DNA of 25,143 nt, taken from a virus. The position numbers and the translations under genes are program-made. The stretch is taken from IMG/VR virus record IMGVR_UViG_3300023184_003457, positions 1 to 25,143 of that record; one strand, given 5' to 3'. The notes beneath the pieces were generated by a model, which was not told the origin of the DNA, made no database searches, and was given only the letters and a program-made list of their open reading frames with translations. Positions 13-24,186 of this stretch are shown here, piece after piece. Within the stretch, counting starts at the first letter, position 1. Each line of letters begins with the position of its first letter.

Positions 13-2607
13 TTAAAACTTATATCTAACCGATAATGATACCGTTTGACCAAAAGTAATCTCTTGCCACCTATTATCTTCTGTGTCATATTTATGATTA
101 CCATTTAGATCTTGAAAGTATATAAGTTTTTGTGCGATTATATCTTTTATATTTAATTTTAAATCTAACTTGCCTATTGTTTTTGATATTTGAAAATCAA
201 TCACATTCCTTCCGTTTTCCCATACACTAGGTTCTTGTTGGTTACCTACAATATAAATTCTTGGACCAATAACATTATATGATAATGTAAGATTGAAATC
301 TTCTTTTTTATTTGTGTAAAATATACCTGAGTTAATAATGTATGGTGATTGTCCTTGAAGTGGTCTGTCTCCTCCCGATCCAATAAACTGATCCAAATTA
401 ACGGTTGATTTTATCAATGATAAATTACTGTAAAGAGTAATGTGATCCCATATTTTATGATCCTCAACTTTAGATAAAAATCCTAAATTAAATCTAAATT
501 CAAATTCACCACCAAAACTTTGTGCTCTTTGTGTGTTTGAAAAGTATAGTTCGGGAGCTCCTGATGTTCCGGTTCTGTTTATAGTCTCAATAGGATTATT
601 AAAGTTTTTATAAAATCCTGATAAAGTTATAATTTGTCCAACACCAGGATAAAACTCATATCTTAAATCACAATTTGTGATTTTGGTTCTTTTTAGATAT
701 GGATTACCCGATGTGATATTATCTAAAATAAAGTTGTAAAAGTTAAATGGTGCCAATTCTCTAAACTCAGGTCGTGATACCGTTTGACTAACACCACCCC
801 TTATTTTCATTTTATTATTTAAGTTATAGATGACATTAACTGAAGGTAATAAATCAACTACAGTCGTGTCTATTTTCTTGTCAAGGTTACTACCAAACTC
901 AATGTAGTTAAAGTTCTGTGTATAAGATTCGAGTCTTGCTCCCCCAGCAAATCTCCAATCACCAACTTTATAATCAACCATTGTATAGAAAGCATTTAAG
1001 AATGAATTAGCATTATAACTATCATCCACTTTTGTTGACTCATCTATTTTAAATCCACCTTGACCATTACTTAATAGACCCATATTGTCTACTGAAAATA
1101 TTTCATCAGCCGGCAATAAAAGTAAACTACTATTAAAAGTACTTCCGTTTGGTTTATATTGTGAGAACCCTAAATTTCTAGATGAAAAATCTTTTGATCT
1201 ATATTGATTCCATCCACCTATCTTAATTGAGTTCTTTTCTTTGACCGGTATTATTAAATCATATTTAGCACTTATAATCTTCTCATTTGACTTTGACCAA
1301 AACATATTACCAGCGGCAGTTGGTATTGTACCATTTTGTTGTATTACCGCAACATATTGTTCATTAGGGTCATCCTCATATAAAGAATACTTTCTATAAA
1401 CAATTCTTCTTAAATTTGGTATGTCTCTTTTAACATTACTATAACCTAAGTTCCAATTAAACTTATTTTGTTTTATAGTATGTGTACCAATAATTTGGTT
1501 AGTTAAAAAGTTATTTTGGGTATACCAAAAATTTGTTGACTTCTCCCATTGACGTGGATCACTATCTAATTCCCTAACACCATTTCTAATATTAACCTTA
1601 TCTTCTGAATTAACCGAGTATATGTTTTTAAATTTAATTACATTATCACCATTAAATTTATACGTTACATTAAACATACCACTATTCAACACACTTTGGG
1701 TGAATACTGAATCATTTAGTTCCATCTTCTTAACAACTCCATTTACCTGTTCCTCAAACTCTCTTCTTATAACATTATTATAACTTAAATTATTTTGATA
1801 ATTGTAAGTTAAAATATAACTTAAACTTTGTTTCTTTTTTAGTTTAATATTTCGACTTAAGGTATATTGAATTGATGAATTAGGTAATGATAATTTATTT
1901 TTAGTAGACCAAGAATAATCCATTGATTTTGCAAGTTCAGATCTATCTTGTTTAGTTAAACTTGTAAAATATATTGTTGTAGGTATATTAGGTAGATCTC
2001 TTGCTCCAACACCAAAACCTAAAAAATCAGTATTACTACCATCATAAGTTTTAAAGTTTTTGAATGTTGTAATTGTATTATATGACCCACCAATCTGTAT
2101 TGTTTGTAGATTATCACTTTTAGGTTCTGACGTATTAATATCAATTACTCCACCGGCAAACTCACCAGGTAAATCAGGACTTGCCGTTTTAATAACAGTT
2201 AAGTTATCAATCATGTTTGATGGAAATATATCAAATGAAAATGATCTCTTATCAGACTCAGAACTTGGTAGTGGTAAACCATTAAGTAATGCGAAGTTGT
2301 ACCTATCATTAAGTCCTCTTACAACAACGAACTTATTATCTACAACACTTATACCACTAACCCTCTTAAAAATATCAGAGACCTTAGAGTCTGGTGTTCT
2401 CTTAAAGGTCTCTGCGTTTATTCCGTCAACTGATGTAACACTATTTCTTTGTAGTCTTAAAAGTTCTGTTGTTGATTCTTTATTTGTTTTAAAGGTAACC
2501 GTAACCCCCTCAACATTTTTAATAGTATCTTTTTTAAAAGACGCATTAGATGGTTGAGATAATAATTGTATTGGTAATACCAATAAAAGTGTAAGAAATA
2601 ATTTCAT
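13..2607 (-). CDS. TonB-dependent outer-membrane receptor, lacking the usual N-terminal accessory domain
   Basis: A TonB-dependent receptor imports a ligand across the outer membrane using TonB energy. The 864-residue product has a signal peptide (about residues 1-18, ending LLSQ). A possible TonB-box-like stretch VEGVTVT lies near 32-38. The plug domain spans about 45-160, including VVVRGLNDRYN at 94-104, the segment PLPSSES and the GEFAGGVIDI strand near 148-157. A long barrel follows, rich in alternating aromatic and polar strands, and it ends in a terminal Phe (VRYKF), the usual outer-membrane insertion signal. Bacteroidetes members of this plug family usually carry a carboxypeptidase-regulatory-like domain before the plug; here the plug follows the signal peptide almost directly. 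It lies 5 bases after a T9SS cargo gene and is very likely co-transcribed with it. The ligand cannot be told from sequence. The family call is firm; its role in a phage is not known. Confidence 0.93.
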   Translation of the reverse strand: MKLFLTLLLVLPIQLLSQPSNASFKKDTIKNVEGVTVTFKTNKESTTELLRLQRNSVTSVDGINAETFKRTPDSKVSDIFKRVSGISVVDNKFVVVRGLNDRYNFALLNGLPLPSSESDKRSFSFDIFPSNMIDNLTVIKTASPDLPGEFAGGVIDINTSEPKSDNLQTIQIGGSYNTITTFKNFKTYDGSNTDFLGFGVGARDLPNIPTTIYFTSLTKQDRSELAKSMDYSWSTKNKLSLPNSSIQYTLSRNIKLKKKQSLSYILTYNYQNNLSYNNVIRREFEEQVNGVVKKMELNDSVFTQSVLNSGMFNVTYKFNGDNVIKFKNIYSVNSEDKVNIRNGVRELDSDPRQWEKSTNFWYTQNNFLTNQIIGTHTIKQNKFNWNLGYSNVKRDIPNLRRIVYRKYSLYEDDPNEQYVAVIQQNGTIPTAAGNMFWSKSNEKIISAKYDLIIPVKEKNSIKIGGWNQYRSKDFSSRNLGFSQYKPNGSTFNSSLLLLPADEIFSVDNMGLLSNGQGGFKIDESTKVDDSYNANSFLNAFYTMVDYKVGDWRFAGGARLESYTQNFNYIEFGSNLDKKIDTTVVDLLPSVNVIYNLNNKMKIRGGVSQTVSRPEFRELAPFNFYNFILDNITSGNPYLKRTKITNCDLRYEFYPGVGQIITLSGFYKNFNNPIETINRTGTSGAPELYFSNTQRAQSFGGEFEFRFNLGFLSKVEDHKIWDHITLYSNLSLIKSTVNLDQFIGSGGDRPLQGQSPYIINSGIFYTNKKEDFNLTLSYNVIGPRIYIVGNQQEPSVWENGRNVIDFQISKTIGKLDLKLNIKDIIAQKLIYFQDLNGNHKYDTEDNRWQEITFGQTVSLSVRYKF

Positions 2608-2612
2608 TTATA

Positions 2613-4175
2613 TTAGTTTTTAACTACTACTCTTTCTGTATGACCATTAACTTTAATGATATAAACACCATTTTCTAAATTTGATAAGTCAGTATTATTA
2701 TTTAAAACCATTTGACCTAAAGAATTGTATATTGTAAAATCTAAAGTTTGTTTTTCACTTATAATAGTTATAACACCATTTGTTGGATTAGGGTAAACTT
2801 TAAATGAAGTTCTATTAGTTTCACTAACACCATTAAATAAATCACCAAACTTAGGATTTGTAAAATCAGCACCTGTTGCAACAACTGATGTACTATCCAA
2901 TCTACAATCAGGTGCAACTCCACTTGGTACAAATATGTTTACCCAATTGATTTGGTTGATTGTAGTTAATGAATCGTTATTATGATTTGAAAAATATGTT
3001 GATAAAAACCCTGGTGTTGTTGTTAAACAATTTGTTGGGATTTCACAAAGAACATTGTGATCAAAAACTAACGTATCACCTAACACGTTATCTTCAACTG
3101 ATGTACCTTCCAAAGATAATCCTTTTTCCCAACCAACAACAAGGGTATTAAATACAGATTCTGCAGAGTTTCTTCTAATTCTAAAAGCTTTCTCAAACTT
3201 CTCACCAATAGGTAAAGTGACATTACCATCACCTTTAGCACCAACAATAGTGAAGTTAGAGAATACTGCTGCGGTTTGTGGTAAAGATGCACTACCTTGT
3301 GCGTCATTATCCGATTCAAAACAATTTGAGTCACCTGCGGCGTCTGACAAATTTTCATTTCTAATCGCTAACCCAAACTGCAAGTTACCTCTGTATCCAA
3401 AGTCTGTATCAAAGTCATCATCTGTTGATGAGTATGATATTAAATGTTTACAATTTACTGTTCCACCAAACCATTCAAATGAATCATCACCTGAATAACT
3501 TACCTGAATGTAATCAACTTGTGTTCCTGAACCAACTGAACCAAAAGTAATTCCATTAATTTCTTTATTAGGTGCTAATGGAATACCAGCAAATTCAATT
3601 CTTACATATTTTAATGAACCTGAATTATCCATATCATCAGTACCACCATGTTCAGTGTCTGATGAAGGAACAATACCTTCAATGTTAACAACACCACCAG
3701 GTTGGTTATTTAATGCTTTACCTAAAAGAATAACTCCACCCCAATCACCTTCAGAACGATTACCAACAGAATTGTTTGATGTGAAAACAATTGGTAATTG
3801 TTGTGTTCCTTCTGCAATTAATTTACAACCTTTTGTGATTGTTAAAGTTCCTTGTGTTCCGTAGTCACCTCTGATGATTGTACCTGGTTGGATTGTTAGT
3901 GTTGCTCCGTTTTTAACATAAATTTTGTTTTCTAACAAGATAACACCTGACCAAGTTGTGTTTGTTGTGATGTCCGTATTAACGGTTGTTTGTGTTGCCG
4001 GGTAATTTGTATTTTCTGGATCAAAATTAGACCACCCATAAGTCCAATCTGTTTGTGGAGTATAATCCGTTACAGGAAATGCCCCTTTATAATCAGTTAC
4101 AGTCCAAAACTGACTTTGTGCGTTTGTTAAAAAAACAAACATTAACATTACGATACTTGCGTAAATCTTTTTCAT
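2613..4175 (-). CDS. Secreted beta-helix-like protein with T9SS type A C-terminal sorting domain
   Basis: This 520-residue protein has a signal peptide (about 1-20, cleaved near TNAQ/S). Its middle region (about 75-440) is rich in short G/N/T-turned beta strands such as YVKNGATLTIQPGTII (86-101), which suggests a right-handed parallel beta-helix. It also has an acidic stretch (STDDDFDTDFGYRG) that could bind metal. The C-terminus (458-520) is a clear T9SS type A sorting domain: KVYPNPTNG, then FTIYNSLGQMV, then LENGVYIIKV. Such domains direct export and surface attachment or release by the Bacteroidetes type IX system. The gene is first in a two-gene unit with the TonB receptor downstream, so the product may capture or bind the ligand that the receptor imports. 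Bacteroidetes homologues are generally left as sorting-domain proteins without a defined activity. No catalytic motif is recognised. Confidence 0.9.
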   Translation of the reverse strand: MKKIYASIVMLMFVFLTNAQSQFWTVTDYKGAFPVTDYTPQTDWTYGWSNFDPENTNYPATQTTVNTDITTNTTWSGVILLENKIYVKNGATLTIQPGTIIRGDYGTQGTLTITKGCKLIAEGTQQLPIVFTSNNSVGNRSEGDWGGVILLGKALNNQPGGVVNIEGIVPSSDTEHGGTDDMDNSGSLKYVRIEFAGIPLAPNKEINGITFGSVGSGTQVDYIQVSYSGDDSFEWFGGTVNCKHLISYSSTDDDFDTDFGYRGNLQFGLAIRNENLSDAAGDSNCFESDNDAQGSASLPQTAAVFSNFTIVGAKGDGNVTLPIGEKFEKAFRIRRNSAESVFNTLVVGWEKGLSLEGTSVEDNVLGDTLVFDHNVLCEIPTNCLTTTPGFLSTYFSNHNNDSLTTINQINWVNIFVPSGVAPDCRLDSTSVVATGADFTNPKFGDLFNGVSETNRTSFKVYPNPTNGVITIISEKQTLDFTIYNSLGQMVLNNNTDLSNLENGVYIIKVNGHTERVVVKN

Positions 4176-10540: not shown

Positions 10541-12457
10541 TTAATAAACCGTTACACTTCCACCACCTGATGTTTGATTGTTTGTATCAACTGGAGTTAC
10601 TGGGGTTCCACCTGTAAGTGATAACATAACTTGATTACGTATTTCTTGATTCCACTTACAATTAACCGTCATACTTAATCCTTTGGTATTGTTTAAATAT
10701 TGTTTAATTTCTCTTAAAGTATTACAAGTTTCTTGGTTACGTATTTTTCTTTGTTTTTGTTTTTCAGGATCTATATTACCATTATATGATTTTGTACTTG
10801 ATTTTGTACCTGAATTATTTCTTCTACTTTTATTATCATTATCATTATTATTTCTATCTTTTTTAATAACCTCTTGAGTACCTTCTTTTGCATCTTCACC
10901 AAATAAAACTCTTTGTGTTGATCCTCCTGTAGTTCCACTAGCTAAAAGGGTTGCTTCAATAACCACAGTATAATCAGTTACTGAAATTATTTTAAAATAT
11001 CCATCATTACCAGTTAATTGGGAATCTTGAGTTTCAGGAGTAACTTTAATCCAATCACCAGCAACATAATTATGTTTTTGACCTGAATAAACTTTCTTTG
11101 CATTAGTATCCTTTAATATTTTAATTAAATCAAAAGTTGCTTGGTCCACAACACCTGGCGTTGAGTTAGGTAATTTATCTTTATATTTTTCTTGGAATTC
11201 TTTTACCGCAATTTCAGTATCAGTACCAAATCCTCCATCAACTTTTATTCCTAATTTTTGTTGTATTAATTTAACATCAGCTCCTTTAGATTTTTTTGCT
11301 ACCGATAATTCAAAAACCGTATTTCCAGTTGTTGTTCCAGTTGGTGCTTCGGTTAATAAATTATATCTAAAACCTTTATGTTTATAACTTTCATTTGTAA
11401 ATTCGTTTTCAAGAGCAGGATCTGTGGTTAGACCAATTTTTCCTTTATTATCTATAACCGCATCATAATCCCAAGCAGTAGTTGATAGTGAGTATTGTAA
11501 AAATTTATTTGGACAATTAAAATCTAAAACAATACCTGAATCAGGTCTTATTATTACACCTTGATCAGTAGGATCTTCAACACCTCTTTTTTGGACCCCA
11601 AAAATAAGATTTTTAATAGTTTGATTGTTAACGTCTAATTTATAACCTACACCTTTATCTATTTTTATTGGAGTTTTTATTAATGCGGGATGTTCACTTA
11701 TACATCCATATCCAGCAAATGATACTTGATTAGCGGAATTACCTCCACCACCAGGAGTGTATGCGGGCCCATCACATTTAAATCCTGATTTTTTATATTC
11801 ATCAACAGTATTATAACCACATTTTTTTGCGGTTACTAATAACTCCTCTTGTTTTTTTAATTTATTTGAGGCGTTAATTTTTTCTTCTTTACTATTTATA
11901 ATCTTTTGGTTTTTTGTTATATTAAGTGATTTATTAATTATATCAACCAACGGAGATAAAACATATGTCAGAGTATCCTCATTTTGATCATCAGATTCTC
12001 TCCCAAAAGGATAACTATTAACTGATCTTAACCCACCTGGATAATCAGTTGTTAGTTCAACACCAGTATGCTCTTTAAATATTTTTTTTATCTCACAAAA
12101 ATTAGGGAAATTATTCATTTGAGTTATCTGTCTTTTAATCTTGTCTTCATCAACACTCACATAACCTTTATTACTACCCAACAATTCAAAAAGTTTATCA
12201 GCAGTTGTACTTATTAAACTATCGTTAAATGTCGATTTACCCATTTTTGCTACATTACATAAGTTACCAATATTTTTTAATTTTTCAACATAAGAACCAC
12301 CACCATTTTTAATACTTTTAACGTATTCAATATTTTTATCCCCAACACAAAAACCACCATCAGGGCAATTTTTTATTTCTTCATTTAATATACCATAACT
12401 TTCATTTAGACTTTGTCTAACAATTCTACTTAATAAACTATCTGTAATTTTTTTCAT
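10541..12457 (-). CDS. Large peptidoglycan-binding-domain protein with N-terminal tag, putative virion or lysis protein
   Basis: This 638-residue protein has a PG_binding_1 domain at about 386-447 (KGADVKLIQQKLGIKVDGGFG, split here as VKLIQQKLG and VDGGFGTDTEIAVKEF). This fold is used by cell-wall enzymes and phage virion proteins to bind murein. A beta-rich section follows (about 455-520), then a low-complexity N/S/K linker (533-560) and a helical end. The N-terminal stretch MKKITDSLLSRIVRQSLNES resembles the tags of the 12461 and 14416 genes and contains L-N-E sites (residues 17-19 and 24-26). The region 30-230 has several cysteines and coiled-coil potential. There is no visible catalytic domain or signal peptide. 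It follows the small PG-binding gene by 3 bases. A virion-associated cell-wall-binding role is inferred. Confidence 0.75.
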   Translation of the reverse strand: MKKITDSLLSRIVRQSLNESYGILNEEIKNCPDGGFCVGDKNIEYVKSIKNGGGSYVEKLKNIGNLCNVAKMGKSTFNDSLISTTADKLFELLGSNKGYVSVDEDKIKRQITQMNNFPNFCEIKKIFKEHTGVELTTDYPGGLRSVNSYPFGRESDDQNEDTLTYVLSPLVDIINKSLNITKNQKIINSKEEKINASNKLKKQEELLVTAKKCGYNTVDEYKKSGFKCDGPAYTPGGGGNSANQVSFAGYGCISEHPALIKTPIKIDKGVGYKLDVNNQTIKNLIFGVQKRGVEDPTDQGVIIRPDSGIVLDFNCPNKFLQYSLSTTAWDYDAVIDNKGKIGLTTDPALENEFTNESYKHKGFRYNLLTEAPTGTTTGNTVFELSVAKKSKGADVKLIQQKLGIKVDGGFGTDTEIAVKEFQEKYKDKLPNSTPGVVDQATFDLIKILKDTNAKKVYSGQKHNYVAGDWIKVTPETQDSQLTGNDGYFKIISVTDYTVVIEATLLASGTTGGSTQRVLFGEDAKEGTQEVIKKDRNNNDNDNKSRRNNSGTKSSTKSYNGNIDPEKQKQRKIRNQETCNTLREIKQYLNNTKGLSMTVNCKWNQEIRNQVMLSLTGGTPVTPVDTNNQTSGGGSVTVY

Positions 12458-12460
12458 ATC

Positions 12461-12673
12461 TTATCCTATTAAAGCGTTTTTTATGGCCTTAAGGGTTAAA
12501 GGTCCTATTTTACCGTCAGGATTTAATCCTGAATTTTTGTTTGAATTTAACCAATTTTGTATATCCACAGTGGAGTAATCTTGAGTTTGTTCAACCAAAA
12601 CATTAGTTTTTACACCATGTTTGGTTAATATGTCTCTGATCTCACTTTCCGTTAATTTTATTTTAGGTAACAT
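12461..12673 (-). CDS. Small peptidoglycan-binding protein with N-terminal tag
   Basis: This 70-residue protein consists of a short N-terminal segment, MLPKIKLTESEIRDILTKHG with VLVEQ after it, and a compact PG_binding_1-type half domain (VDIQNWLNSNKNSGLNPDGK, then IGPLTLKAIKNAL). The G-x-I-G-P-L-T-x-x-A-I-K pattern is characteristic of the family. The tag contains L-T-E and L-V-E sequences of the (L/I)-x-E type cut by T4-like prohead proteases. It lies 3 bases before the larger PG-binding gene, so both products are probably made together. A TATATTTA box at 12705-12712 could be its promoter, with a leader of about 27 bases. A role in cell-wall contact is inferred. Confidence 0.75.
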   Translation of the reverse strand: MLPKIKLTESEIRDILTKHGVKTNVLVEQTQDYSTVDIQNWLNSNKNSGLNPDGKIGPLTLKAIKNALIG

Positions 12674-12733
12674 AAATATTGCTTATTAAATTTATTTTAT
12701 TATATAAATATAACCAAACAATAAAAAATAAAT

Positions 12734-12756
12734 AAAAAAAGGGAACCGAAGTTCCC
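12734..12756 (-). terminator. Rho-independent terminator with UUCG loop
   Basis: On the minus strand GGGAAC-TTCG-GTTCCC (12741-12756) is a perfect 6-base-pair stem closed by the very stable C(UUCG)G tetraloop, followed by seven T (12734-12740). It ends the unit of the 12822-13097 gene, about 65 bases after its stop. Confidence 0.92.
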
Positions 12757-12821
12757 ATTTTAGGCCCGACATTGAATACATATCTGACTCCACCACCTTA
12801 TTTTTATAAACAAGGAAACAA
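12757..12821 (-). other. Structured 3' untranslated stretch, unexplained
   Basis: Between the stop of the 12822 gene and its terminator lies a stretch unlike the surrounding A+T-rich spacers. It starts with a possible 8-base-pair hairpin (CCTTGTTTATAAAAATAAGG on the minus strand, one G-T pair) and continues with a more G+C-rich block ending TGTCGGGCCT. No convincing ORF is seen. It may be a structured 3' end or a small RNA; nothing else is recognised. Confidence 0.3.
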
Positions 12822-13097
12822 TTATTTTGTCACTAACGCTTCAATCTTACTTTTAACTTGTTCAGTAAATGAAACTTCTTTAACGTTTGTAAAGATAACA
12901 GAGTCTTTCAACACCTTACTTGGAATATGTACCAAGAACGTATCTCCGTTGAAGAAACTTAGGTCTTCTTCTAATACCAATGCTCCGTGTACCATCTTCA
13001 AAAAGATTTTGAATTGTGTCTGATCCATGAATGTCTCGTTGATTAAATCACCGAACTTATCACTAACTACTTTTATGTTGAAACCCATTTTATTCAT
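12822..13097 (-). CDS. Hypothetical small protein under its own promoter
   Basis: This protein of 91 residues (or 88 from Met4 at 13088) is not recognised. It has a helix near 13-36, a segment VHGALVLEEDLSFFNGDTFLVHIP with beta character, and a second helical end (FTEQVKSKIEALVTK). A strong Bacteroidetes-type promoter (13102-13132) places the transcription start about at the first ATG. The second ATG, with A-rich AATAAA before it, may therefore be the true start. The gene forms a single-gene unit ended by the UUCG terminator at 12734-12756. Its independent promoter and strong terminator suggest a distinct expression time from the neighbouring genes. Confidence 0.65.
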   Translation of the reverse strand: MNKMGFNIKVVSDKFGDLINETFMDQTQFKIFLKMVHGALVLEEDLSFFNGDTFLVHIPSKVLKDSVIFTNVKEVSFTEQVKSKIEALVTK

Positions 13098-13101
13098 ATA
13101 A

Positions 13102-13132
13102 CAAAGATACTAAATTATTTTTCAATTACAAA
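13102..13132 (-). promoter_or_regulatory. Bacteroidetes-type promoter
   Basis: On the minus strand TTTG (13129-13132) is followed after 19 bases by TATCTTTG (13102-13109), an exact fit to the TTTG / TAnnTTTG consensus. The predicted start is at about 13097, at or just before the first ATG of the 12822-13097 gene. The box overlaps nothing coding except the last codons of the upstream gene at the -33 side. Confidence 0.7.
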
Positions 13133-13447
13133 TTTTCTACCAACTTTTTTTAATGTCCCAACAAAATCATTTTTGTGGTCAATACCACCCCAAAAACCAG
13201 ATCCGTCTGACCATACACCTTTTTTATTATTTTTATAAACCATCTCACCATCAAATGTAATGTATTCAGGTTGTTCATTTTTATTCAAAGCATAAGCTCT
13301 TGTCATTTCTCTATTTTCAGATGGTGAGTAATTACCTGACCAATCTTGCCTACATAGAAATGTTGCTTGACCAACAATTATTTCTTGTTCATCAAGTGTT
13401 GCTTTCTTGTTAAATTTTTTCTTAAATGTGTTAATGTAAGTCCCCAT
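13115..13447 (-). CDS. Hypothetical small protein
   Basis: The 110-residue reading from ATG 13447 (MGTYINTFKKKFNKKATLDE) is preferred. A longer reading starts at a TTG codon (13474) and would run through the promoter box at 13464-13471. The protein is basic at its N-terminus. Its core has aromatic residues and short strands (ATFLCRQDWSGNY, then EYITFDGEMVYKN, then GVWSDGSGFWGGIDH) and may be a small beta-rich fold. No family is recognised. The Gly/Trp-rich segment could be a binding loop. The gene begins 18 bases after a TATATTTG box and its end overlaps the -33 element of the next promoter. Function unknown. Confidence 0.6.
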   Translation of the reverse strand: MGTYINTFKKKFNKKATLDEQEIIVGQATFLCRQDWSGNYSPSENREMTRAYALNKNEQPEYITFDGEMVYKNNKKGVWSDGSGFWGGIDHKNDFVGTLKKVGRKFVIEK

Positions 13448-13463
13448 ATGTTTTTTATTTCTA

Positions 13464-13471
13464 CAAATATA
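13464..13471 (-). promoter_or_regulatory. TAnnTTTG promoter box
   Basis: TATATTTG on the minus strand ends 17 bases before the ATG at 13447, giving a predicted leader of about 12 bases, A-rich as is usual before Bacteroidetes start codons. No clear TTTG at -33. It lies directly after the terminator at 13493-13530, which supports a new transcription start here. Confidence 0.5.
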
Positions 13472-13490
13472 CAAATAAAATTAACACCGC

Positions 13491-13585
13491 ATAAAAAATC
13501 CCATACTTTTTTCTCAAAAATTATGGGATTAATATTGATAAACCAATTAATTCGTAGAAAGGAAGGGTATTGGTTGTTTTTGTGT
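13491..13585 (-). ncRNA. Candidate small RNA of about 95 bases
   Basis: A promoter-like pair (13590-13618) and a strong terminator (13493-13530) bracket a stretch with no ORF. The predicted transcript has a 5' hairpin with a 7-base-pair stem (AACCAAT / ATTGGTT; arms 13569-13575 and 13541-13547). Its 21-base loop is pyrimidine rich (ACCCTTCCTTTCTACG). The terminator hairpin follows. This promoter, hairpin, terminator layout is that of a bacterial small RNA. The alternative is simply the 3' end of the NUDIX transcript. Confidence 0.4.
13493..13530 (-). terminator. Rho-independent terminator
   Basis: A perfect 9-base-pair inverted repeat, AATCCCATA (13497-13505) and TATGGGATT (13522-13530), encloses a loop whose T and A runs could extend the stem. 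A T run follows on the minus strand (13493-13498). It can end either the NUDIX transcript or the candidate small RNA. Confidence 0.88.
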
Positions 13586-13589
13586 AATA

Positions 13590-13618
13590 TAAATATACAA
13601 TACTTTAGTAAAAGTCAA
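13590..13618 (-). promoter_or_regulatory. Candidate promoter of the small RNA
   Basis: On the minus strand TTG (13616-13618) is followed after 18 bases by TATATTTA (13590-13597), one base from the TAnnTTTG consensus. It lies 14 bases past the stop of the NUDIX gene and has no ORF downstream before the terminator. Confidence 0.4.
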
Positions 13619-13631
13619 TGAATTTTTACTT

Positions 13632-14042
13632 TTAAGATAAAATTTTTGTTAAAATCTTATATAACTCCTCATTTTTTTCTACAGGAAGGTCTTCTAACGT
13701 AAAAAACCCACAATCTGAATGTTCGTGACCATCTTCCGCTTTATCCAAATTTGGCATCTTTTTTTCATCAGATTCATATATATATACATAAATTAAACCC
13801 TTTGGTTCTCCTTTTTTATTTTTCTTTGTTATGAATCCAACCAAACTTATATCCTTCTCAATCTTAATATTTGTTTCCTCATAAAATTCACGATAAGCAC
13901 AATCTTTTGGTGTTTCATTTGCCTCCAAATGTCCTGTTGGAATAAACCATTCTCCGGCATAAGTTTCGTGGTCAGCTCGTTTACATAACAAAACTTTATT
14001 CCCAAATTTTAATATTACACCTGAACTTCTATTTGATTTCAT
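13632..14042 (-). CDS. NUDIX hydrolase
   Basis: This 136-residue protein has a Nudix box at about 37-59: G37, E43, R51-E52 and E55-E56 in the order G-x5-E-x7-RE-x2-EE (GHLEANETPKDCAYREFYEE). The last Gly of the consensus is replaced by Asn. The box binds Mg and cleaves nucleoside diphosphates linked to another group. The flanking strands (GVILKFGNKVLLCKRADH and ISLVGFITKKNKKG) fit the fold. It could clean oxidised nucleotides, hydrolyse a nucleotide sugar or act on capped RNA; sequence does not decide. It is divergent from the DUF192 gene across only 23 bases. Confidence 0.9.
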   Translation of the reverse strand: MKSNRSSGVILKFGNKVLLCKRADHETYAGEWFIPTGHLEANETPKDCAYREFYEETNIKIEKDISLVGFITKKNKKGEPKGLIYVYIYESDEKKMPNLDKAEDGHEHSDCGFFTLEDLPVEKNEELYKILTKILS

Positions 14043-14065
14043 AATAAGAATATATTTATAACTAT
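14043..14065. promoter_or_regulatory. Very short divergent intergenic region
   Basis: Only 23 bases separate the two divergent start codons. They contain TATATTTATA (14051-14060). On the plus strand this gives TATATTTA ending 8 bases before the DUF192 ATG; on the minus strand it reads TATAAATA, which equals the T4 late-promoter consensus, about 9 bases before the NUDIX ATG. Which reading matters cannot be decided here. Confidence 0.35.
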
Positions 14066-14413
14066 ATGGAGTTAATAGTAAATAATAATTTATTCAATGT
14101 CAAATGTGTGATGACCACTAAAGACATACAAAAAGGTATGATGGGTAAAAAATTTGACAAAAGTTTTGATGGTATGTTATTCATAATGAAGGACAGTAAT
14201 CATTCTTTTTGGATGAAGGACTGTATCATCTCTTTAGATATAATTTTTATAAAAAATAATAAAATCAACAAAATACATAATAATTGTAAACCATGTAATA
14301 CACCTGAGTGTGATCGTTATACTGGTAATGGTGATATGATATTAGAACTCAAAGGTGGTACTTGTATAAAATATGATATTGCCGAAGGTGATACCATATT
14401 ATTACAAGATTAA
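14066..14413 (+). CDS. DUF192 family protein, the only plus-strand gene
   Basis: This 115-residue protein matches the DUF192 core: T-x-x-x-x-x-GMMGKK (about 18-29), FDGMLFIM (34-41), HSFWMKDCIISLDIIFI (46-62) and a C-terminal ILELKGGTCIKYDIAEGD (92-109). Bacterial DUF192 proteins are often exported and their role is poorly defined. This one has no signal peptide and so is probably cytoplasmic. It has extra cysteines (C75-x-x-C-ending pattern NNCKPCNTPEC) that could bind metal. It is the only gene on the plus strand in the window and converges with the DHH gene 2 bases past its stop, with no terminator hairpin visible between them. Confidence 0.88.
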   Translation: MELIVNNNLFNVKCVMTTKDIQKGMMGKKFDKSFDGMLFIMKDSNHSFWMKDCIISLDIIFIKNNKINKIHNNCKPCNTPECDRYTGNGDMILELKGGTCIKYDIAEGDTILLQD

Positions 14414-14415
14414 TA

Positions 14416-15972
14416 TTATCTATTATTTGGTCTAAATCTCATTTGATTTGATTTTACCGCATTCTTTGAGAATCTTAACCCTTGTCCTTGTTTTCTAGTG
14501 TTTCCTAATGACCTTGCGTGTTCCGTCATTTCAACCTCAAAATTTGGTTCATATCTATTACCACCATCTTCATTAATTTTTTCTTTCAAAACTCTAACAA
14601 ATTCATTCTGTACCATCTTAGTAAATTTAATATAAGGAGAATCATCTGACTCTTCATTATATTTGTATTTACCTACAGGTGGTCTTTTAGATCTACCTAA
14701 ATATGATAACCCAGAAATATTTGTAATACATTTGTGTCCACCACTATTAGATTGAATTAAATCCCAAGCGTTTACACTAATAGAATCTAACATTCTCATT
14801 TCTTTATCTGTTAAACTACTAAATGGTTTTCTCATTGCCGTTTCAACATCATCAAGAATATCTTCCCCATCGGCCATTTGTTTAAATTCTTTACCATATA
14901 AGGCATTAAAATCTCTGAATGTAAAACCAACTGATTGTTCACCAAAACCTTTTCCTGATTCTGATATCCATTTTATTGTAGATAAAGGAATATCCTTATC
15001 TTGTAATTGTGATTTCCACTTGTTTAAGACATCATCTTTGATCTCACCTAAGTTTACACCTTTAAGTGCTCTTTCTTTCTTAAATGGATTACAAGACGCT
15101 TGTACCAACCCTAACGGCCAAGCAATTACCAAGAAGTCAGCATCAGGATTATTTCTGAATGGTGTGTATCTATCATATGATCCTGGTTTCATCATACTAC
15201 CTCCACCATACTGAACTATAATTTTATCATCAACTTTAACATTCTTGTGAGTTTTCATTGTTTGAACATAACTCTCTTTGTTTTTTTCTAAATCTCCAAC
15301 ATCAGCATAACTTTTTTCTTTGATCTGAGATCTGATGTTTAACAATATACTTAATAACGATGGATTTGCATTCATTACAATATTTTCCAAGAACCCTGGT
15401 TTGTTTTTGAATGCCAATAATAATTTATTAGCAACCATACCCATTATCATTTTGTTTTTTTGTAGTGATTGATCTTTATCTACCTTAAACAAATAGTTCA
15501 TTACTTGTTCAGGACTAATATCATGTTGAGCATAATTTGCTGAGTCCACCGTAGATATCAAAGTGATATCGTCAGATGGGAAAATATCTCTTGGAGATAC
15601 GGTTTGGGATATTGTCTCAACGTTAGATCTTGAAGATTTAAAATTAGTTGAGGTACCTTGTTCAACCCCCGCTTGTGTGTCGTGGTGGTCAGTATGTATA
15701 ATGAACATTGGTTTACCGTGAGCAAAGTCAACTAACACCGGCATAACATCACCCTCAGCATCCAACTTTTTAATTGCGAATTCTTTATCACCATATTGAA
15801 TGATCTCGGCATCTACTACCTTTATTCCGTTTTGTTCTAAGTAACTTTTCATACCTAAAGCAGTGGTTACACCATCTAAATCTTGGTGAAAATATATCTT
15901 AGCCTCAGGGTATCTTCTAGATAATTCCCTGATGTTTCTTATTCCCGATTCCGTTATTAACTTTTTCTTCAT
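14416..15972 (-). CDS. DHH/DHHA1-type phosphoesterase (RecJ/NrnA-like) with N-terminal tag
   Basis: This 518-residue protein has the DHH catalytic motifs in order: FHQDLDG (28-34), LVDFAHG (80-86), HTDHHD (93-98) and TVDSANY (141-147). Near residue 411 is GGHK, the usual DHHA1 GGH element. The family includes RecJ exonuclease, nano-RNases and cyclic dinucleotide phosphodiesterases, which use two Mn ions to hydrolyse phosphodiester bonds. It is longer than NrnA-type enzymes, with extra regions between 150 and 400. The N-terminus MKKKLITESGIRNIRELSRR resembles the tags on the 10541 and 12461 proteins. The C-terminal tail is basic (KQGQGLRFSKN, then RFRPNNR), consistent with nucleic acid binding. 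Substrate unknown; a RecJ-like or oligonucleotide role is inferred. Confidence 0.85.
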   Translation of the reverse strand: MKKKLITESGIRNIRELSRRYPEAKIYFHQDLDGVTTALGMKSYLEQNGIKVVDAEIIQYGDKEFAIKKLDAEGDVMPVLVDFAHGKPMFIIHTDHHDTQAGVEQGTSTNFKSSRSNVETISQTVSPRDIFPSDDITLISTVDSANYAQHDISPEQVMNYLFKVDKDQSLQKNKMIMGMVANKLLLAFKNKPGFLENIVMNANPSLLSILLNIRSQIKEKSYADVGDLEKNKESYVQTMKTHKNVKVDDKIIVQYGGGSMMKPGSYDRYTPFRNNPDADFLVIAWPLGLVQASCNPFKKERALKGVNLGEIKDDVLNKWKSQLQDKDIPLSTIKWISESGKGFGEQSVGFTFRDFNALYGKEFKQMADGEDILDDVETAMRKPFSSLTDKEMRMLDSISVNAWDLIQSNSGGHKCITNISGLSYLGRSKRPPVGKYKYNEESDDSPYIKFTKMVQNEFVRVLKEKINEDGGNRYEPNFEVEMTEHARSLGNTRKQGQGLRFSKNAVKSNQMRFRPNNR

Positions 15973-17816: not shown

Positions 17817-18023
17817 TTATTTAATACTTTCTAAATAATCCCATACTTTATTTGAAAACTCTTCGTAAAGGTCTCCATCCTCATCATCTGATAAGTCAAC
17901 AATGTATTCATCCACACAAAAATCCACAATTATTTCGTGTACTTCACCAAGTGTTTGTTCATCGTTTTTTAATCCTTCATATTGATTAAGGATATGATTT
18001 TTTTGTTCCTCTGTTAGTTTCAT
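17817..18023 (-). CDS. Hypothetical small acidic protein
   Basis: This 68-residue, strongly acidic protein is not recognised. It starts MKLTEEQKNHILNQYEGLKN, a helix, and continues with acidic stretches (DFCVDEYIVDLSDDEDGD) before a final helix (EFSNKVWDYLESIK). The KLTE-x(5)-IL spacing equals that of the tag in the 12461 protein (KLTESEIRDIL), though here the whole protein seems a cytoplasmic acidic protein, so the likeness may be chance. It follows the membrane-protein gene by 6 bases. Small acidic phage proteins often mimic DNA or bind host proteins; nothing shows that here. Confidence 0.65.
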   Translation of the reverse strand: MKLTEEQKNHILNQYEGLKNDEQTLGEVHEIIVDFCVDEYIVDLSDDEDGDLYEEFSNKVWDYLESIK

Positions 18024-23067: not shown

Positions 23068-24186
23068 TTATTCTTCTCTATATTCTTTTAATAATTCATC
23101 ATTTGAAATTGTTCCGTATTTCTCATTAAGACCTTCCATATTAACATCCTTATTCATCATTATTTTAACATCGTAGATTTGATCGGTAGTATTTAAAGAT
23201 ATGTCAATTTCTTTAATAATTTTGTATGGGTCAGCATTTGAACCAGGTCTTCTATCCTCAACATAACCTTTCCAATTTTTTGCGGTATCTCTTGGAATTC
23301 TAATTGATGCCCCACGATCTGAAACCCCCCAACTAAATTTATCAATTGATTGTGTTTCAAATTTACCAGTTAAACGAAGATTGTTATCTGACCCGTAAGC
23401 TTTAATATGGGCTTCATGTCTTACCTCAAACGCATTAAACAATGATATAAAATATTTTTCGTTACCATCATTTCTCATTTTATCTGTTGAGAAATTTGTA
23501 TGAAGTCCTGACCCGTTCCACTCCCCTTTTTGAATTGGTTTTGGATGTAGATCAATCCCATAATTATATTTTTCAGAGATTTTATATAAAAAGTATCTGG
23601 TCATCCACAAATCATCACCTGCCTTTAATTTACCTTTTGAAAATACTTGGTATTCCCATTGACCTAATGCAACCTCAGCGTTGATCCCTGTAATGTCAAT
23701 TCCGTATTTTAAACACATATCCATATGTTCCTCAACAAAATCTCTTCCTGCAACATATTCACCAACACCACAATAATATTTACCTTGTGGTTCCAAGTTG
23801 TTTTCATTGTGTCCTAAAATACATTTGTTATTTCTATCGTAGATAAAATATTCTTGTTCAAACCCAAACCACAAATCTTCTTGATCTCCAATTAGTTTTG
23901 ATCTTGTGTTAGTTTTGTGTGGTGTACCATCAGAATTCATTACTTCACACAACACGTAAATTGTGTTTGTATTATCACAAAAATAATGTCTAACAGGTAT
24001 TAAAATACAATCAGAACTATTACCTTCCGCTTGTAATGTTGATGATCCATCAAAGTTCCATTCAGGGAAATTATTTAGAACTAAACAATTTTTAATTTGT
24101 TCATAGTCCACAATTTTAATCTTACTTCTAAGGTTTGGCTCAGGTGTATACCCATCAATCCATACATATTCTAACCGAACTTTCAT
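23068..24186 (-). CDS. glnII: Type II glutamine synthetase
   Basis: This 372-residue enzyme makes glutamine from glutamate, ammonia and ATP. It has the beta-grasp N-domain (EYVWIDG at 6-12, WNFDGSST at 43-50, EGNSSDCIL at 54-62), and the catalytic barrel has FEQEY (109-113; E110 and E112), NAEVALGQWEYQ (169-180; E171 and E178), GSGLHTNFS (225-233; H229), LTGKFETQ (272-279; E277), SDRGASIRIPR (289-299; R291, R296) and EDRRPGSNADP (310-320). The usual His of GKHET is Phe here. This is the GSII (eukaryote and flavobacterial-like) form, complete by motif order. Its start overlaps a small upstream gene by 4 bases. A phage-encoded glutamine synthetase is unusual. Confidence 0.95.
   Translation of the reverse strand: MKVRLEYVWIDGYTPEPNLRSKIKIVDYEQIKNCLVLNNFPEWNFDGSSTLQAEGNSSDCILIPVRHYFCDNTNTIYVLCEVMNSDGTPHKTNTRSKLIGDQEDLWFGFEQEYFIYDRNNKCILGHNENNLEPQGKYYCGVGEYVAGRDFVEEHMDMCLKYGIDITGINAEVALGQWEYQVFSKGKLKAGDDLWMTRYFLYKISEKYNYGIDLHPKPIQKGEWNGSGLHTNFSTDKMRNDGNEKYFISLFNAFEVRHEAHIKAYGSDNNLRLTGKFETQSIDKFSWGVSDRGASIRIPRDTAKNWKGYVEDRRPGSNADPYKIIKEIDISLNTTDQIYDVKIMMNKDVNMEGLNEKYGTISNDELLKEYREE

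Follow-up and report, generated by a model that had tools for sequence, protein, structure and literature searches.

The viral sequence analysed here, the complete 25,143-base IMG/VR record IMGVR_UViG_3300023184_003457 (hereafter the window), encodes three proteins that begin with short stretches resembling the capsid targeting sequences (CTSs) of phage T4 internal proteins. We consider it very probable that these stretches are removable capsid-targeting propeptides, as a sequence-only reading of the window had proposed. That proposal is now supported by a prohead protease encoded in the clade of the window and by tag ends of the form (I/L)-x-E on dozens of unrelated proteins. The clade would accordingly be equipped with an expanded targeting system, in which several swappable tag classes precede dozens of unrelated proteins, including a DHH phosphoesterase and two peptidoglycan-binding proteins of the window. 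The source is a huge, T4-like, aquatic (freshwater) phage, of which the window is one 25 kb piece; it is AT-rich and carries nearly all genes on the minus strand.

Tagged proteins of the window

All three N-terminal peptides lie on the minus strand where the sequence-only reading had placed them: MKKITDSLLSRIVRQSLNESYGILNEE (10541-12457), MLPKIKLTESEIRDILTKHGVKTNVLVEQTQ (12461-12673) and MKKKLITESGIRNIREL (14416-15972). The (L/I)-x-E sites were likewise confirmed, namely SLNE19 and ILNE26 in a protein of 638 amino acids (aa), LTE9 and LVE28 in a 70-aa protein, and ITE8 in the DHH protein. The claim that one similar stretch precedes three different folds stood only in part. The peptides are real, but they are variants of different tag classes, and the resemblance among them would by itself not be significant; what makes the window tags significant is the clade-wide excess reported below. 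As for the folds, the DHH protein stands apart, whereas the other two share a weak peptidoglycan-binding domain. The features are as follows, a slash marking a predicted cut.

12380..12457, minus strand: aa 1-26 of the 638-aa protein, MKKITDSLLSRIVRQSLNE/SYGILNE/, an N-terminal tag that has two (L/I)-x-E sites and is proposed to be a capsid-targeting propeptide
10541..12457, minus strand: 638-aa protein, tagged cargo candidate, PG_binding_1-like domain at aa 392-443
11348..11359, minus strand: internal LLTE, aa 367-370 of the 638-aa protein, upstream of its peptidoglycan-binding part
12590..12673, minus strand: aa 1-28 of the 70-aa protein, its N-terminal tag, MLPKIKLTESEIRDILTKHGVKTNVLVE/Q, with E28 kept in relatives
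12461..12673, minus strand: 70-aa tagged protein, partial peptidoglycan-binding domain (Pfam, sub-threshold)
15949..15972, minus strand: aa 1-8 of the DHH protein, its N-terminal tag, MKKKLITE/SG, with E8 invariant in the alignment of relatives
14416..15972, minus strand: 518-aa DHH/DHHA1-type phosphoesterase, tagged cargo candidate (PF01368, E=0.0012, sub-cut-off)
17817..18023, minus strand: 68-aa open reading frame (ORF) starting MKLTEEQKNHILNQYEG, with L-T-E5, resembling the MKKxLITEEEKSRILGMHK tags of the related contigs G043 and G044; weakly suggestive of a fourth tagged protein

In each family the site is conserved (Glu at P1, the free residue at P2, Ile or Leu at P3). Among the 12 variants of the 638-aa family, which share 36-51% overall identity with the window copy, aa 1-26 are near-invariant and the sequence turns hypervariable directly after LLNE26. 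Residues L367, L368, T369 and E370 are also invariant (12/12 sequences), and this LLTE precedes peptidoglycan-binding repeats of variable number; it is possibly a second processing site, at which the protein may be cut. The binding domain scores just below the Pfam cut-off (PF01471, E=1.9e-4, 22 versus 23 bits), and PHROG endolysin matches cover the same region. Relatives of the 70-aa protein keep E28, with Leu or Ile at P3 and Val, Leu or Ser at P2; its own domain matches are both below cut-off (PF01471, E=0.0035, 17.9 versus 23 bits; PF09374, E=0.0022), and a tagged G043 protein has a PG_binding_1 domain at 48.9 bits. Relatives of the DHH protein start with (K)K-[LI]-[LI]-x-E-SG, where x is T, S, K, L, V or F. 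In an alignment of 14 sequences down to 45% identity E8 is invariant, P3 is always I or L, and P2 is T, S, K, L, V, F or N. The motifs HQDLDG, TDHHD and SGGHK are intact, with D31, D33, D95, H96, H97 and S410, G411, G412, H413 invariant in the alignment. The structure model of this protein is poor (pLDDT 58), residues 1-11 being of low confidence, and a sequence search of the PDB revealed no relative.

Tag excess and conservation of the site in related genomes

For the DHH gene, IMG/VR contains 328 confirmed relatives, and there are two full-length matches in the complete phage records LR745206 and LR756502 (635 and 642 kb). The 96 kb contig G001 is a near relative of the window, its DHH protein being 98% identical. 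The G001 tail sheath, used as query, led to G043 (296 kb) and G044 (257 kb), whose sheaths are about 75% identical; G044 encodes a DHH gene 60% identical to that of the window. Scanning about 2 Mb of related genomes for the tag, as the sequence-only reading had suggested, revealed it on dozens of proteins that are unrelated to one another; the tag ends in a conserved (I/L)-x-E, beyond which conservation drops sharply. With tag-class patterns that were chosen after viewing these genomes, and that pool several interchangeable classes in G043 and G044 (34-43 genes per 257-296 kb), real starts exceeded the number expected from internal methionines in G043 (43 versus 2.6), G044 (34 versus 1.3), LR745206 (28 versus 2.4) and LR756502 (25 versus 3.0), compared with 1 versus 0.4 in phiKZ. 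The bodies behind the tags fall into 34, 34, 25 and 23 unrelated families in G043, G044, LR745206 and LR756502, respectively.

Shuffling gave a similar picture. [FYLIV][LI]xE occurs in 69 G043 and 64 G044 proteins, versus 35 and 32 expected when residues 2-30 are shuffled (z = 6.6 and 6.1); internal segments yield 35 and 29. The T4-like pattern is found 28 and 24 times in LR745206 and LR756502 versus about 5 expected (z = 10 and 9). In phiKZ there is neither an N-terminal (L/I)-x-E excess nor an S77 match.

Since the patterns had been chosen with these genomes in view, the scans of IMG/VR used DNA patterns restricted to the initial part of each tag, and the unselected residues outside the patterns were then read. 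The class A scan, keyed to aa 1-15 (MKK[IV][IV][RK]LTESDLTRI), returned 58 unrelated families. Glu22 is present in 57 of the 58, residue 20 is Ile in 46, Leu in 7, Val in 3 and Met in 2, residue 21 varies, and from residue 23 on nothing is conserved. Such an end of conservation after residue 22 is expected at a cleavage junction. Scans with MIKKYxxFI and MNLQESIRRI found Glu11 in 23/28 families and Glu13 in 15/16, respectively. Bacterial and archaeal genomes totalling 257 Gb gave no match to the class A pattern, and a tblastn search with the 22-aa class A tag found none among INPHARED phages. Identity among tags amounts to 0.82 for amino acids, 0.56 for third positions of invariant codons and 0.45 for the 30 bases upstream. 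Because synonymous sites vary while the peptide is kept, selection acts on the peptide.

Tagged gene families can also be amplified: G004 93461-96547 and G043 238754-242671 hold tandem arrays of 5-8 paralogues starting with MKYLITESQ or MKIIITESQY.

Prohead protease and head module

The sequence-only reading had called for a gp21-like protease in the genome. G043 and G044, both contigs of the window clade, encode an S77/gp21-type protease adjoining the scaffold and gp23 genes. The order is that of T4: terminase, gp20 portal, S77 protease, acidic scaffold and major capsid protein (MCP, gp23). The protease matches PF03420 (4.3e-22 in G043, 2e-22 in G044), the PHROG head maturation protease (6.9e-43) and the T4 gp21 structure 5JBL (4.5e-13), and its catalytic His (ELNHP) and Ser (SSRG.GSL) motifs match the T4 gene. 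Portal and MCP are equally clear (PF07230, 4.4e-68; PF07068, 2.5e-74). The MCP propeptide carries the same motif as the tags, and its cut site can be predicted: all 38 of 38 distinct MCP N-termini have LINE followed by Ala or Ser, SFLINE/A corresponding to GSFLTE/A of T4 gp23.

The window itself encodes no prohead protease, and PF03420 is absent from 17 DHH-bearing IMG/VR fragments, because the head genes lie elsewhere and the fragments end before them. Several contigs hold tag and protease together, e.g. 3300034060_000856 and 3300042455_001086. Contig G045 has a tail sheath 93% identical to that of G001 and a terminal gp23 gene with 91-93% DNA identity to protease-bearing loci. MCP and protease queries from the LR745206/LR756502 clade did not reach the window clade; the tail sheath query did. 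In G043 the T4-like portal gene (162873-165968, L439) is split by an intein with an HNH endonuclease.

Tag classes, scaffold repeats and cargo

In T4 IPIII the first ten residues suffice for packaging; residues 4 and 7 serve targeting, and processing requires residues 8 and 10 (PMC9026906). A strict pattern applied to T4 recovers two ORFs, both with the known CTS MKTYQEFIAEA. In LR745206 and LR756502 about 25 proteins carry the tag M..[KR]Y..F[IL].E, whose spacing equals that of the T4 CTS MKTYQEFIAE at the experimentally mapped positions. An early regular expression had missed the LR745206 tags because this clade uses another tag class. The Y4..F7 aromatic layout of the IPIII CTS is present in both genomes, whereas the window-clade tags form an aliphatic/basic helix. 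As judged from sequence, the system is of the T4 CTS type in every testable feature except for this aromatic layout in the window clade.

LR745206 198546-200669 and LR756502 225272-227371 encode a fusion of the protease with a scaffold-like region that contains about 11 tandem repeats of the NYSEYLAENLDK type, an architecture found at more than 100 IMG/VR loci. Across this subclade the fused scaffold holds 9-12 copies of Y.[EQ]Y[IL]AE. This suggests that the LR-type tag may imitate the scaffold and be cut at the same motif. The sole PDB match of the LR protease alignment, an unrelated endopeptidase at E ~0.09, was disregarded. Throughout these two genomes many more ORFs, outside the tag counts, start with MKHIKRFNE, MKHLKRYNE or MIKKWNQFNE; they may represent a shortened or decayed form of the tag (F-N-E for I-x-E).

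Orthologues can exchange their tag class and keep the site. The DHH orthologues of LR745206 and LR756502 start with the T4-like tags MISKYNQFINE/EVG and MLRKYGQFINE/EVG, and the 'YYAFDWDDN' protein shows the same kind of exchange. Further swaps concern LR756502 280913 versus G043 157237 and G043 72370 versus G044 88973. The tagged genes are mostly accessory: of the 24-40 in each genome, 1-4 are matched by a homologue in the other clade. Besides the window proteins, cargo-like tagged proteins include a T4-type RNA ligase, a GH108 lysozyme, a PPK2 kinase, a methyltransferase and peptidoglycan-binding proteins. The tagged product of LR745206 448257-449573 (minus strand) combines a 2'-5' RNA ligase/2H phosphoesterase domain (weak match to anti-CBASS Acb1) with a DnaQ-type exonuclease and is a candidate virion-carried counter-defence protein. 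Such functions would be in keeping with a role early after entry into a new host.

Alternative explanations

The tags could be prohead-protease propeptides on structural head or core components such as scaffold accessories, and not on ejected cargo. T4 gp67 and gp68 do belong to the core, gp67 being cut (PMC9026906), and the invariant internal LLTE of the 638-aa protein looks as if the protein gets cut up. However, the tagged genes are mostly accessory and include enzymes (RNA ligase, PPK2, DHH, methyltransferase), unlike scaffold parts, so that we regard this explanation as unlikely. That the tag targets another place (a phage-made compartment, the membrane or the tail), with (I/L)-x-E as a never-cut part of a helix, appears more doubtful still. 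Amphipathic basic helices can serve many targeting roles, and cleavage of these tags is a prediction; on the other hand, Glu and Ile/Leu are fixed, P2 is free and conservation ends at P1 in three independent tag classes, and both the MCP propeptide and the scaffold repeats terminate in the identical triplet. There is very little to suggest that the resemblance of the three window peptides is accidental or that they simply form the first helices of their domains. Their mutual similarity is weak and the DHH tag continues directly into the first helix of the fold, but the DHH and peptidoglycan-binding families keep the site while P2 is free, the DHH orthologues swap their tag, and the conserved block of the 638-aa family stops exactly at LLNE26. 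Finally, mobile or duplicated DNA at gene starts (a shared promoter or start cassette) could create similarity that has no function at the protein level; many neighbouring genes are tagged, and the class can differ between orthologues. This origin is scarcely tenable: the tag peptides are more alike than their third codon positions or upstream DNA, identity figures that largely refute DNA-level duplication as the cause, and T4-like and class A tags are unlike in sequence yet have the same site.

Several observations nevertheless weigh against the capsid-targeting propeptide interpretation. The window is without any head gene and is linked to the protease via related contigs: the DHH gene of G044 is 60% identical, and G043 shows a fragment match only. 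Class A and the T4-like class are more canonical than the tags of the window, and P1' is mixed (Q, S, E, N), unlike the Ala of T4. For many of the short tagged ORFs no function is known, and chance may account for some of the in-phase E residues. It is also important to note that the phage is uncultured, cleavage of the tags and presence in the virion being predictions from sequence.

Comparison with other phages

The closest counterpart is the gp21-cut CTS of T4 IPI-IPIII and Alt, which shares the S77 protease, the gp20/gp23 head module and an N-terminal propeptide, here of 8-28 aa, that ends in (L/I)-x-E and is common to unrelated proteins. Whereas T4 has a handful of tagged proteins, we count 25-43 strict cases in 257-642 kb, tags of several classes that are swapped between orthologues, and in one subclade tag-motif repeats in a protease-scaffold fusion. 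SPN3US and phiKZ also package many proteins into the head, some with propeptides cut by the prohead protease (PMC5694885), but they cleave at A/S/G-x-E after mostly >100-aa propeptides, process few proteins and have no T4-like short tag; the tags described here end in (I/L)-x-E after 8-28 aa. The moraphages, large aquatic Bacteroidota phages (PMC12619734), are T4-related, with a listed prohead core protease and a glutamine synthetase that is also present in the window; a word search of that paper found nothing on N-terminal tags. Literature searches in an open library, which excluded subscription papers and preprints, found no report of CTSs in huge phages or of such an expansion.

Neighbouring genes of the window

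Other window genes encode a glutamine synthetase, a DNA methylase, an RNA ligase and nucleotide-sugar functions. The glutamine synthetase (23068-24186, minus strand) is divergent, and the same gene has been highlighted for the moraphage lineage (PMC12619734), hinting at an affiliation of the window with moraphages. At 13-4175 (minus strand) a TonB-dependent-receptor-like gene, recognised by reading, lies beside a protein with a type IX secretion system (T9SS) C-terminal sorting domain (Por_Secre_tail, 1.2e-11). A chimeric assembly of this end looks unlikely, because homologues occur in related phage contigs (T9SS protein: 80% in L008, 37% in LR745206; TonB protein: 27% in LR745206). Bacteroidota-type surface genes thus seem to be carried by these huge phages.

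Proposed mechanism and implications

The tags, their site pattern, the protease, the scaffold, the MCP site and the tag swapping were observed directly, and from them we infer a course of docking, cleavage, packaging and ejection. Through the amphipathic helix of its tag, a newly made protein would dock at the prohead's scaffold core. Cleavage by the S77 prohead protease after (I/L)-x-E would then destroy the scaffold and release the cargo within the shell. Once the DNA is packaged, the cargo would stay in the virion, to be ejected with the DNA. Somewhat more speculatively, the tags might form a general protein-import code, by which dozens, perhaps about 100, effectors enter each head via interchangeable cleavable tags; the classes might mark docking site, loading amount or ejection order, and in one subclade the protease-fused tag-motif repeats might be the docking scaffold. 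We offer this extension tentatively, as rather less than an even prospect.

If the capsid-targeting propeptide interpretation is correct, the virion contents of huge phages, i.e. their first-strike proteins, would become readable from sequence by a short pattern. Dozens of phage proteins per genome, now of unknown role, would obtain a predicted place (the head) and time (the first minutes of infection). The T4 CTS, hitherto known from a handful of proteins and as a packaging tool, would be extended to a large delivery system in nature that employs new classes of tag.

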